Positions 17,765 to 52,672 of a DNA stretch of 64,000 nt are shown piece after piece. The notes beneath the pieces are model-generated. The model ran no database searches. It was given only the letters and a program-made list of their open reading frames with translations, and was not told the DNA's origin. Source of the stretch: Roseateles saccharophilus (GTDB lineage Bacteria; Pseudomonadota; Gammaproteobacteria; Burkholderiales; Burkholderiaceae_C). The stretch lies in NCBI RefSeq assembly GCF_004342485.1, contig NZ_SMBU01000008.1, positions 124,001 to 188,000 on the forward strand. The letters run 5' to 3'. The position numbers and the translations under genes are program-made. The stretch's first letter is position 1, and every line of letters begins with the position of its first letter.

Positions 17765-17779
17765 TGAAATAAAACTACA
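17765..17779. promoter_or_regulatory. HexR-like operator 1, upstream of pullulanase 1
   Basis: TGAAATAAAACTACA lies 55 bases before the pullulanase 1 start. It matches 14 of 15 positions of TGTARTWWWMYTACA, the HexR-type pattern recalled from other proteobacteria. The right half-site is intact and the left is degenerate. Confidence 0.6.
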
Positions 17780-17864
17780 TCAACATTCGGTGCTTTCCCG
17801 TGGTTCGATTACACAAGATTACTCAGCATCGATGACATATCCAAGCAGGATTCAGCCATCAATA

Positions 17865-17879
17865 GGTAGCAAAACTACC
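17865..17879. promoter_or_regulatory. HexR-like operator 2, upstream of pullulanase 1
   Basis: GGTAGCAAAACTACC is a perfect palindrome with 5-bp arms (6 bp if the flanking A and T are counted). It shares the 13-base core GTAGCAAAACTAC with sites at 20704 and 52534. It is 155 bases before the pullulanase 1 start. Confidence 0.65.
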
Positions 17880-17974
17880 TGCGTCGACATCGAGAAAGGA
17901 GATGCAAAGAACAGGCCCACACTGCTGGTGACATGCAGGCGCTGCGGCCCGAAGTTCCAGGCCGAAACCTCGCG

Positions 17975-20677
17975 TCAGTCGAGCACGAAGACCGCCGCGC
18001 TGCGGGCCGGCACCTCGAAGCTGCCGGCCCGGGCCCGCGCCTCGCGGCGCACGCGCGCGTCGGCACCCTGGCGCTGCACGGGGTGCAGCGTCCAGCGCTC
18101 CTGCACCGCCTCGGGCAACTCCAGAACCTGGGCCGCCGGCGAGACATTGATCAGCGCCAGCAGCGCCCGGTGGCCGGCACCAGCCAGGCCGCGGCCATCG
18201 ACGCGCATCGCGACCAGCACCGGGTTCTGGCCGGCGCCGCTGCCCGGGAAGCTGACCCGCTTCTCGATCTCCGCAGCGCTCGGCAGCCGCAGCAGCGGCG
18301 TGCTCGCGCGGATCCTCAGCAGGTCGCGGAAGACATCGCGCGCCCAGGCGATCTCGGCCGGACCGGGCGCGATGGATGGGTCGGCCAGGCGTTCGCGCGC
18401 CAGCGCCCAGTCGCGGCCACCCTGGCCGAAGTTGTCGCGCCGGGGCGGCAGGCCGCTGCCGAAGTGGTTGCTCCGGTAGCTCCAGTCGATGCGGTTGAAC
18501 CAGTCGCCCGAGTCGTAGCTGTTGCGGTCCATGCTCTTGCTGCGCAGGATGTCCTGGCCGGCATGGAAATAGGCGACGCCCTGGCTGAAAGCCACCAGGG
18601 CAGCGCCCAACATCTGCACGCGGGCCCGGTCCGCGCGCGAGGTGCCCAGCGGCAACTTCAACGCGCCGATATCGAACAGCGTCTGGTTGTCGTGGTTCTC
18701 GACATAGTTGACGACCTCGCCCGGCTGCGAGGCGTAGCCGGCCGGCTGGTCGCCATAGGCGATCCGGTCGAGGCGCTTCTTCTCGCCGCGCCAGGTCAGC
18801 AGCTCGTAGCTGCGCAGCGAGCCCGCCAGGCCGACGCGGATCATGTCGGCCGCGGTCAGAAGTTCCTCGGGCCGGGCCGGCGCGGCCGCGGCAAGCGCAT
18901 TGGGCGCGTAGACCAGGCCGTTGAGCCAGCCCTGGCGGCGCACGCTGTCGTCTCCGCCCTCACCCGCACCGCCACCTCGCGCCGCATCGCGCCCGCGGTC
19001 GCTGAACGTGCCGATGCCGCTGCCGTTCAGGCTCAGCTGCGAGGCCTGCACGAAGCGCGCGCCGTTGGCCACTTCGCCGAAATTCCAGCCCTCGCCCAGC
19101 AGTTGCACCGGCCGGCCGGCCTCGGCGTCGACGCGCGCCTGCAGCCTCTCCATCGCCTCGCGCGGCTGGTGGCCCATCAGGTCGAAGCGCATCGAGTCGA
19201 TCCGGTACTCGCGCACCCACTGCGCCGCCGAATCGATCATCAGCTTGGCCATCATGCGGTTCTCGGTGGCCGTGTTGTCGCAGCAGGTCGAGCGCTCGAT
19301 CTCGCCCTTGGCATTCAGGCGGTGGTAGTAGCCCGGCACGAGGCGGTCCAGCACGGACTTCGGCGCCTGGCCGGCTGCGGCCATGTGGTTGTAGACCATG
19401 TCCATGCCGACGCGCAGGCCGGCCCGGTGCAGGGCCATCACCATCTGGCGGAACTCGACGACGCGCTTGAGCGGGTCCGTCGCATAACTGCCCTCGGGCA
19501 CGCCGAAATGCCAGGGGTCGTAGCCCCAGTTGAAGCAGTCATCTGCCGCCACGGCCATCACGGCGGCCTGCTGGGCCTCGCCGTCGGGCGCACCGGCCGG
19601 CACCTCGGGCGTCCGGCAGCCGCGCTCGGGCACGCTGGCGAAGTCGAAGACGGGCAGCAGGTGCACGTCGGTCAGGCCGGCCTTGGCCAGCGCCTTCAGA
19701 TGCTTCATGCCGTTGGAGGCGGGCTCGGTGAAGGCCAGGTATTTGCCGCGCCAGGCCGGGCGCACGCTGGCGTCGCTGGCAGAGAAGTCGCGCACATGCA
19801 GCTCGTAGATGAGCTGGTCGGTGGCCGCCTTCACGCGGCCAGGGCGGGGTGTCACGTCCCAACCGCGCGGCTTCAGCGCGGGCGAGGCCAGGTCGGCGAC
19901 GAGGCTGAGCTGCGAATCCGCCGTCAGCGCGACCGAGTAGGGGTCGGTGACGAGATTGCGCACGCGGCCATGCGTCGGCGTCACGACATCGACGAGATAG
20001 CGGTAGGCCTGGCCGCTCAGGTCGCCCGGCAGTTCGGCACGCCAGACGCCGGTGGCCGAGTCGAGGCGCATCGCGTCCACGGCGCTGGCCGGCGCACCGG
20101 GGCCGGCATGGCGGCACAGCAGCACGCGCTGTGCGGTCGGCGCCCAGACGGCGAAGCGCGTCTGCGCCCGGGCGGGATGGACGCCGAGGTCGTCGACCCG
20201 CTCGGCCACTGCATAGAGGTCGTCCAGCGCCCCGGCAAGCTGCATACCCGTCGCCTCGATGACGCGGCCATCCTCCGCCTCGTGAACCAGCAGCAATTGC
20301 TCGCGCAGCAGCGCGGCCACATCCGCCCCGGCGACGGTGAAGCGCGGGCCGTCGCCGATGAAGCGGAAGCGCGCCGGCAACGCCGCTGCGGCAGCCACCA
20401 GATCGACCGCGCCATCGCCGCCGGCCACCGGCTCGCCCGGCACCGCCCGCATGCCGGCGGCGGCTGCGTGATGCAGCCGCACCCGCTCGCCCGGCCGCAG
20501 CTTCAGCCCCGGCCATTGCAGCGTGTGCGCGTCCAGCCAGTAGGCCTCGGCCAGCGGGCGCGCGGCAGTGGACGGCTCGGGCACGGCGGCATTGCAGTCG
20601 GCCAGCTCATCGGCCCAGGCGGCATCGGCCAGCAGGGCCAGGCCCAGCAGCGCGGTCAGCGCAAGGCGTGCAGACAT
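17975..20677 (-). CDS. Second pullulanase-type alpha-1,6-glucosidase, secreted
   Basis: The 900-residue product begins with a signal peptide (MSARLALTALLGLALLADAA then WADELADC). It has the pullulanase architecture without the paired CBM41 modules: FNWGYDPWHFGVPEGSY, VGMDMVYNHM, IDSMRFDLMG (nucleophile Asp), [12 protein letters not shown] (Glu) and [11 protein letters not shown]. It is probably periplasmic or secreted and debranches maltodextrins or starch. AAGGAGA precedes the ATG at 20677. The gene ends 264 bases before pullulanase 1 and the two look like an old tandem duplication. A HexR-like operator at 20704-20718 overlaps the likely -10 box. Confidence 0.94.
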   Translation of the reverse strand: MSARLALTALLGLALLADAAWADELADCNAAVPEPSTAARPLAEAYWLDAHTLQWPGLKLRPGERVRLHHAAAAGMRAVPGEPVAGGDGAVDLVAAAAALPARFRFIGDGPRFTVAGADVAALLREQLLLVHEAEDGRVIEATGMQLAGALDDLYAVAERVDDLGVHPARAQTRFAVWAPTAQRVLLCRHAGPGAPASAVDAMRLDSATGVWRAELPGDLSGQAYRYLVDVVTPTHGRVRNLVTDPYSVALTADSQLSLVADLASPALKPRGWDVTPRPGRVKAATDQLIYELHVRDFSASDASVRPAWRGKYLAFTEPASNGMKHLKALAKAGLTDVHLLPVFDFASVPERGCRTPEVPAGAPDGEAQQAAVMAVAADDCFNWGYDPWHFGVPEGSYATDPLKRVVEFRQMVMALHRAGLRVGMDMVYNHMAAAGQAPKSVLDRLVPGYYHRLNAKGEIERSTCCDNTATENRMMAKLMIDSAAQWVREYRIDSMRFDLMGHQPREAMERLQARVDAEAGRPVQLLGEGWNFGEVANGARFVQASQLSLNGSGIGTFSDRGRDAARGGGAGEGGDDSVRRQGWLNGLVYAPNALAAAAPARPEELLTAADMIRVGLAGSLRSYELLTWRGEKKRLDRIAYGDQPAGYASQPGEVVNYVENHDNQTLFDIGALKLPLGTSRADRARVQMLGAALVAFSQGVAYFHAGQDILRSKSMDRNSYDSGDWFNRIDWSYRSNHFGSGLPPRRDNFGQGGRDWALARERLADPSIAPGPAEIAWARDVFRDLLRIRASTPLLRLPSAAEIEKRVSFPGSGAGQNPVLVAMRVDGRGLAGAGHRALLALINVSPAAQVLELPEAVQERWTLHPVQRQGADARVRREARARAGSFEVPARSAAVFVLD

Positions 20678-52433: not shown

Positions 52434-52531
52434 GCCAGGGCTCCCGAAAAGGGATGGGACGGGACGGGCGTATTCAGGCTTGGAGTTTCGGCAGGCACAG
52501 ATCGAACAGGGTGAAATATCGGTCGTGGCGG

Positions 52532-52560
52532 ACGGTAGCAAAACTACATCATTCCGACAA
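52532..52560 (-). promoter_or_regulatory. Predicted promoter of glk
   Basis: On the reverse strand TTGTCG (52555-52560) and TACCGT (52532-52537) are 17 bases apart, with TGC directly before the -10 as an extended element. The -10 itself is weak. The HexR-like site lies across the spacer and -10. Confidence 0.45.
52534..52548. promoter_or_regulatory. HexR-like operator 9, glk promoter
   Basis: GGTAGCAAAACTACA contains the identical core GTAGCAAAACTAC seen at 17866 and 20705. It matches 13 of 15 positions of the HexR pattern and sits about 100 bases before the glk ATG. Confidence 0.7.
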
Positions 52561-52643
52561 TACACATTCACCCCAGCCATTCAACTTCGCCGAAGAAAGC
52601 GTTTTCAACATCAAAAAAGAGCGCTTCTCCTGGGAAAACTCGA

Positions 52644-52672
52644 TTGCTGCACCGCTGTAGTGAAGCTACAAC
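52644..52672 (+). promoter_or_regulatory. Predicted promoter of the glk-RpiR fusion gene
   Basis: TTGCTG at 52644-52649 and TACAAC at 52667-52672 are 17 bases apart. Transcription should start near 52680. Confidence 0.5.
52656..52670. promoter_or_regulatory. HexR-like operator 10, autoregulatory site of the fusion gene
   Basis: TGTAGTGAAGCTACA has perfect 5-bp arms and 13 of 15 matches. It spans the spacer and -10 of the fusion gene's own promoter, which suggests negative autoregulation. Confidence 0.7.

Follow-up and report, generated by a model that had tools for sequence, protein, structure and literature searches.

A putative starch regulon in Roseateles saccharophilus, marked by palindromic operators and a glucokinase-RpiR fusion

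We analyzed a 64,000-nucleotide stretch of the Roseateles saccharophilus genome (contig NZ_SMBU01000008.1, positions 124,001 to 188,000; hereafter the window), in which ten short palindromes precede genes of starch debranching, uptake and phosphorolysis. We consider it likely, though well short of certain, that these palindromes of the form TGTAGY-N3-RCTACA act as operators of a regulon devoted to starch and are recognized by a protein encoded beside them, a fusion of a glucokinase (Glk) with an RpiR-family regulator. This protein appears to have lost most of the pocket with which its relatives bind 2-keto-3-deoxy-6-phosphogluconate (KDPG), and its effector is probably a different compound.

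Candidate operators precede the starch genes

All ten 15-mers named in the original prediction were found in the intergenic regions assigned to them. They were scored with a matrix built solely from 141 sites (48 distinct 15-mers) that lie no more than 700 bp ahead of the fusion gene in 80 relatives. The sites, given without strand, are:

17765 to 17779, operator TGAAATAAAACTACA, about 54 bp 5' of pul1, weak (14.8 bits); the same 15-mer precedes pul1 in relative L202
17865 to 17879, operator GGTAGCAAAACTACC, upstream of pul1 (13.8 bits)
20704 to 20718, operator AGTAGCAAAACTACA, about 26 bp upstream of the pul2 start (19.5 bits); similar sites at the same promoter in L202-L205 and L207
20781 to 20795, operator AGTAGTTTGAGTACA, directly adjoining the start codon of the amylase gene (14.2 bits); a site at the same position in L202 and L203
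33581 to 33595, operator TGTAGTTTGACTACA, between glgP and malK (25.5 bits); glgP/malK loci of relatives also carry sites
33691 to 33705, operator TGTATATTGTCTACA, second glgP/malK site, weak (10.3 bits); identical in L139 and L140
51091 to 51105, operator TGTATCAAAACTAGA, before the TonB receptor, weak (13.8 bits); identical in 7 of 8 relatives compared
51244 to 51258, operator TGTAGCGCAACTACA, before the TonB receptor (22.3 bits)
52534 to 52548, operator GGTAGCAAAACTACA, before glk (18.6 bits)
52656 to 52670, operator TGTAGTGAAGCTACA, before the glk-RpiR fusion, in an autoregulatory position (23.6 bits)

The genes concerned were assigned by profile search:

14171 to 17710, minus strand, pul1, pullulanase-type alpha-1,6-glucosidase
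17975 to 20677, minus strand, pul2, pullulanase-type protein
20795 to 22405, plus strand, alpha-amylase of family GH13
25204 to 33497, minus strand, glgP-glgB-glgX-malQ run
33798 to 40957, plus strand, maltodextrin ATP-binding cassette (ABC) transporter run, malK-malE-malF and a further open reading frame (ORF) with a GH13 domain
48150 to 50987, minus strand, TonB-dependent receptor
51441 to 52433, minus strand, second, free glucokinase (330 aa)
52787 to 54691, plus strand, glucokinase-RpiR fusion (634 aa), the proposed reader of the sites

The nearest named relative of the fusion is that of Pelomonas aquatica (97%). Five sites are strong, with 18.6-25.5 bits (20704, 33581, 51244, 52534 and 52656), and five are weaker, with 10.3-14.8 bits (17765, 17865, 20781, 33691 and 51091). 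The weak sites recur in close relatives, the 51091 site being identical in 7/8 loci, the 33691 site in 2/2 and a site at the 20781 position occurring in 2/2; likewise, the one pul1 promoter examined in a relative carries a site pair with one identical 15-mer. The palindromes are thus real, but the pattern TGTAG-N5-CTACA first proposed for them fits exactly in three sites only.

Allowing up to three mismatches, TGTARTWWWMYTACA gave 20 strand-matches in the window compared with 0.8 in shuffles. These correspond to 10 places, namely nine of the ten predicted sites (all except 33691) and position 59600. At a threshold of at least 10 bits, 11 of 12 window matches fall within five intergenic regions that together span 1,487 bp. 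The earlier remark that none was seen inside genes is not entirely accurate, as one match, at 48161-48175, falls within the TonB-receptor gene toward its 3' end; at 15.3 bits it scores above five of the ten sites.

We scanned the whole genome (5,771,016 bases in 108 contigs; the window is C8:124001-188000). The exact TGTAG-N5-CTACA motif has three copies, all among the window sites. The relaxed motif DGTARYNNNRYTACH has nine matches, six of them in the window (17865, 20704, 33581, 51244, 52534 and 52656) and all six of the GTAG/CTAC form, while the sites at 17765, 20781, 33691 and 51091 fall outside it. The three matches elsewhere are C8:10617, C19:54409 and C21:74052. Seven of the nine precede starch or glk genes, including the out-of-sample match C8:10617, which lies before an unlinked CBM20 alpha-amylase gene about 113 kb before the window; the remaining two are of the GTAA form, one preceding edd by about 46 bp and the other ppc by about 34 bp. 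With one mismatch, TGTAGYNNNRCTACA occurs in 33 places. Among the 28 strings scored with the matrix, the top six (18.6-25.5 bits) are all at starch or glk promoters and the next reaches 15.8 bits; the other five are copies of one contig-end 15-mer of 14.7 bits. The genome-wide scan called for in the original prediction shows a motif enriched before starch genes. A reversed-pattern control (129 matches compared with nine for DGTARYNNNRYTACH) was rejected as a null, since the genome is GC-rich and probably poor in TAG/CTA words.

The operator is conserved in relatives

Upstream of the fusion gene, 74 of 80 loci carry at least two matches of at least 13.5 bits, and L070 carries one. At the TonB receptor, 55 of the 56 loci with a placeable start have a match of at least 17 bits within 450 bp upstream (the exception is L040), and in 54 of these 55 the site lies outside the stretch used to train the matrix. 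The motif is also conserved at glgP/malK and pul2/amylase of relatives. Of 17 named genomes, 16 have the exact motif, with 48 copies in total.

A starch, glk or TonB-receptor gene follows the site in 24 of 29 stretches around an exact site, unlinked loci included. The five exceptions are L143 (anthranilate synthase), L159 (exonuclease VII), L148, L161 and L167. The L148 site lies behind a TonB-dependent receptor gene; in both L148 and L167 a 214-aa ORF follows the site, with an ExbB-family gene next in L167. The same operator, TGTAGTTTTGCTACA, precedes the 214-aa ORF at L148:6970 (Mitsuaria chitosanitabida) and L167:6909 (Roseateles depolymerans), possibly marking a TonB-energising operon within the regulon. 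In L161, two good matches (6722 and 6939) lie between genes for a Na/H exchanger and an AIR-synthase-like protein, with no starch gene behind them.

Density counts covered 2,067,670 bases in 117 loci chosen by fusion or motif, with some genomes represented twice. For matches of at least 17 bits, the 400 bp upstream of these starch, glk and TonB-receptor genes show a density of 269 per 100 kb (244 matches, training sites included), compared with 0.12 inside the same genes (one match) and 1.04 elsewhere (12 matches). For weak matches of 13.5-17 bits, the corresponding values are 54, 0.24 and 0.52. These data support the proposal that one operator family stands over starch uptake, debranching and phosphorolysis.

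The fusion protein is the likely reader of the sites

Two RpiR-family genes are found in the genome, the glk-RpiR fusion and a hexR directly behind zwf. We compared motif and fusion in 120 genomes of the family, a sample uncorrected for relatedness that includes some of the 17 named genomes. The exact motif was present in 16/19 genomes with a fusion of at least 67% identity, in 2/8 with a fusion of 45-59% identity and in 5/93 without a fusion (Fisher 2e-12 for close-fusion compared with fusion-less genomes, kinship ignored). Because the motif tracks the fusion gene, the fusion rather than the HexR beside zwf is likely to read the sites, in agreement with the original prediction.

The zwf-linked HexR (C29) could nevertheless be the reader, with the starch genes extending the classical regulon of this KDPG sensor: it belongs to the same family, its recognition helix (SKPTVVRFCRS) resembles that of the fusion and its KDPG pocket is intact. 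We regard this as improbable, since the fusion-less genomes, many of which encode such a HexR, mostly lack an exact TGTAG site, the five that have one showing mostly GC-rich cores, and since the promoters adjoining these hexR genes carry a different palindrome. In 20 zwf/HexR stretches, 18 of them with a clear pair and with zwf starts placed approximately, a near-palindrome of the GTAAY- or GAAAY-N3-RTTAC type (counted without a chance rate) lies at the zwf promoter in 15/18, six with a perfect core. No perfect TGTAG palindrome occurs near zwf in these 18 stretches, and L238, L248 and L249 have no GTAAY/GAAAY-type site near zwf either. In R. saccharophilus itself, a poorer GTAA-type match, TGTAACTAAGTTTCG, lies between zwf and tal, and no TGTAG-type site was seen at zwf or edd.

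Letter 5 of the operator therefore appears, from these comparisons, to separate the two paralogs within one cell, with G for the fusion and A for HexR. The starch genes had originally been read as an extension of the HexR/Entner-Doudoroff regulon. This is not supported in the genome at hand: the GTAAY-N3-RTTAC sites at edd and ppc together with a second HexR beside zwf argue for a split of the regulon rather than its extension.

Least probable of all is a reader from another family encoded elsewhere, such as a LacI-type MalR. LacI proteins govern maltose regulons in many bacteria, and the genome holds nine LacI genes. None of the nine is on contig C8, however, so the LacI-type protein that the original prediction named as a possible competitor has no candidate gene nearby. 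The other possible regulators among the scanned window ORFs, a LysR gene and a ChrB-like gene, stand beside unrelated genes. Moreover, the site equals a 15-mer bound by the RpiR-family protein RccR according to passages of PMC5489143, and it occurs twice before the fusion gene in most loci.

The operator resembles that of RccR

The best experimentally known match that we saw for the window operators is the 15-bp site of Pseudomonas RccR. Passages of PMC5489143 place two such sites, TGTAGTTTTACTACT and TGTAGTAAAACTACA, before aceE and describe that RccR without ligand binds this form far more tightly and represses aceEF; the HexR operator of Pseudomonas is given there as TTGT-N7-8-ACAA. The window sites have the TGTAGT/ACTACA form of RccR, so the designation as HexR-type operators was not borne out. 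The two systems also share the RpiR family, paired sites (at aceE in Pseudomonas) and a helix of the type PTxxRFCRxxGC. RccR differs in that it is not fused to another domain, responds to KDPG and has pyruvate, glyoxylate and gluconeogenic genes as its targets (passages of PMC5489143 and PMC10810197). In the fusion, most KDPG contacts are gone, and the sites are found at starch genes. RccR also has 28-bp long-spacer sites at aceA, pckA and glcB.

The zwf-linked HexR is likewise of the same family, with a short odd-spaced palindrome, and glk is among known HexR targets (PMC5343134, in part). It differs from the fusion system, which has starch targets instead of Entner-Doudoroff genes, a changed KDPG pocket and a fused glucokinase. 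The HexR operator of Shewanella is TGTAAT-N3-ATTACA. We take A at letter 5 (the TGTAAT type) to be typical of HexR operators, in contrast to G in the window sites; the GTAA form is restricted among the relaxed matches to those at edd and ppc.

In the HexR profile model (cut-off 296) the fusion reaches 232 bits, and the zwf-linked HexR also falls short with 247 bits. Against NCBIfam NF010701 (PRK14101), the bifunctional transcriptional regulator/glucokinase in which a glucokinase is likewise followed by RpiR in one frame, the fusion scores 831 bits over nearly its full length (cut-off 920). More distant fusions (58-59% identity, L215 and L216) adjoin zwf and a sugar ABC transporter. Searches of open-licence PMC papers listed nothing relevant to the fusion or to HexR with starch.

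Most KDPG contacts are lost in the fusion

RccR contacts KDPG through S139, H148, R152, H164, S183, S185, S188, K270 and R277 (passages of PMC10810197). All nine are kept in the zwf-linked HexR (SHRHSSSKR, like RccR). The fusion reads YFRRSGL, in which only R152 and S183 are kept, and its C-terminal tail (columns 270 and 277) aligns unreliably. We extracted and aligned 74 of the 80 relatives' fusions: S139, H148, H164 and S188 are replaced in 74/74 and column 270 contains no K, while R152, R164 and S183 are invariant. The remaining six, which are fragments, lack S139 and H148 too. Fusions from Roseateles to Undibacterium share a new set, Y139, F/Y148, R152, R164 and S183 (RccR numbering). The recognition helix is invariant in 74/74, as are the glucokinase motifs NDFTA and EGGH, which have a role in glucose binding.

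Unfused HexRs encoded beside glk keep the pocket, although in some of them T replaces S at position 185 or 188 and position 277 is H. More distant fusions display partial decay (CQRQSSLKI, DSRSDDSS, SYRYSSAM, SHRHSALDL and SHRSSSHGI). In a tree of 35 rows, with several long branches and a midpoint root, KDPG-type proteins and fusions lie on two sides of a 100/99 branch, which also sets the unfused glk-linked HexRs apart from all fusions.

As most KDPG contacts are lost, the effector is probably a starch-breakdown product and not KDPG, and release of the fusion by KDPG, which the original prediction suggested as a check, would be expected to fail. A fusion that binds the sites and still answers KDPG through an altered pocket has about as little to recommend it as HexR as the reader. 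It would draw on the kept residues R152 and S183, the former essential for KDPG in RccR (PMC10810197, in part), and on the presence of edd, by which KDPG is probably made in the cell. It conflicts with the replacement of four contacts in every aligned fusion and with the missing K at column 270, given that K270A abolished and S188A weakened KDPG binding of RccR (passages of PMC10810197).

A model for starch control by the fusion

From the sites, their conservation, their co-occurrence with the fusion, the pocket change and the operator split, all seen in sequence, we infer binding, its sign, the effector and the order of events. By analogy with HexR and RccR, the fusion would act mainly as a repressor at 15-bp sites, often paired. 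Its targets would be its own promoter, autoregulated through the 52656 site, the free glk, the TonB-receptor operon, the pullulanases, the amylases, glgP-glgB-glgX-malQ and malKEF. The site at 20781 abuts the amylase start codon, which favors a block over activation. The effector could be glucose, glucose-6-phosphate from the protein's own kinase half or glucose-1-phosphate from GlgP. The Entner-Doudoroff side would be left to the HexR beside zwf, which keeps its KDPG pocket and probably reads GTAAY-N3-RTTAC.

A more specific version is tentative, and we would sooner bet against it: the fused glucokinase may have taken over sensing, such that glucose binding or turnover, or glucose-6-phosphate, switches the regulator as in a trigger enzyme, while the paralog, whose operator differs by one letter in each half-site, keeps the KDPG circuit apart. 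Operator pairs may further be bridged by DNA loops. Helical phasing of the pairs at 10.5 bp gave no signal (R 0.17). When 62 spacings from several promoters were clustered by relatedness, a period of 11.2 bp fitted best (R 0.35, jitter p 0.005), an exploratory value that we keep as an idea only, since ancestry is unmodelled and some genomes occur twice in the set (L155 is the L073 genome, L163 the L095 genome).

Several observations weigh against the fusion as the regulator of starch genes by way of these sites. Taken singly, half of the ten window sites are weak, and the four regions scanned contained no sigma-70-like promoter. In five of the 80 loci (L035, L047, L051, L082 and L083) no match lies in the 700 bp before the fusion; three of the 19 close-fusion genomes (G211, G253 and G193) lack an exact site, and Solimicrobium (G014/L082) has the fusion and no exact site in its whole genome. 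Since the fusion co-occurs with starch genes and the genomes are related, the co-occurrence test cannot be separated from gene content or ancestry. The helices of fusion and HexR differ by few residues, making cross-binding possible. Within the pocket, R152 is kept, S185 is still S in 43/74 and column 277, in the unreliable tail, is R in 45/74. RccR no longer bound DNA when S139, H148 or H164 was changed to alanine (passages of PMC10810197); as the fusion differs at all three, its putative DNA binding must rest on compensation. Finally, the G073 fusion (L173, SHRHSALDL) keeps five contacts even though the sites of this genome adjoin genes for a cyclomaltodextrinase and a TonB receptor; the tie between pocket loss and starch control is therefore not a tight one. 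The RccR mutants and the G073 pocket led us to set our confidence slightly lower. The helix in L082 and in L083, an uncultured Oxalobacteraceae, is the same as in the other fusions.

Origin of the operator

Placements in other genomes suggest where the operator came from. In G091, with an unfused glk-HexR, the RccR-type 15-mer TGTAGTAAAACTACA is flanked by zwf and a gene of the edd family, and TGTAGTTTAACTACA in G085 and TGTAGTCTAACTACA in G129 precede ppc. In G136 and G024, which encode distant fusions, zwf and the gene for a sugar-transport binding protein have a site between them. Starch-side placements include a site before a LamB-GH13-malK-malE-malF run that ends with the fusion (G244), one before a GH13-malK run (G284) and several between the cyclomaltodextrinase and the TonB receptor (G073). 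G130 has no site before the fusion (L047/L169) and one before the free glk (L229). Some sites are at unrelated genes, such as queuosine synthesis (L220) or between a Clp ATPase and a GGDEF-EAL gene (L227), with others unplaced.

This distribution fits the move of an old Entner-Doudoroff operator to starch genes after the fusion. Helix and operator would descend from a glk-linked, KDPG-sensing HexR over zwf, edd and ppc; after its fusion to glucokinase most of the KDPG pocket would have been lost and a different conserved residue set would have arisen. Judged by sequence, the case looks like a regulon hand-over, with a HexR/RccR-type operator passed to starch genes under a new effector.

Other features of the window and genome

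A tryptophan-halogenase-family gene lies behind the TonB receptor:

46527 to 48041, minus strand, tryptophan-halogenase-family gene

Together with a DUF6445 gene it occupies 45255-48041 behind the starch TonB receptor, and in several relatives a halogenase-family gene also adjoins the TonB receptor. At 7230-9011, a protein-kinase domain and a C-terminal universal-stress-protein domain share one frame. In the nearly 2 kb of 22405-24281, the two ORFs tested had no Pfam match. Elsewhere in the genome, the 15-mer TGTAGCGCAACAACA is repeated near low contig ends (C6:28, C17:25, C47:25, C48:26, C63:24 and C75:26) and at C17:99727, possibly as the border of a repeat at which the assembly was interrupted.

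Implications for starch control

The system would represent a compact case of regulon hand-over, in which operator and helix stay constant, the targets move to starch, the effector pocket is replaced and the lineage is marked by a fusion. The label HexR on the fusion may mislead with regard to both ligand and targets. If the fused kinase does act as a sensor, the protein would be a kinase-based sugar sensor. The reading predicts a simple rule, GTAG versus GTAA, separating two paralogs within one cell, and a starch regulator in Roseateles, Pelomonas, Paucibacter, Rubrivivax, Ideonella and Undibacterium.

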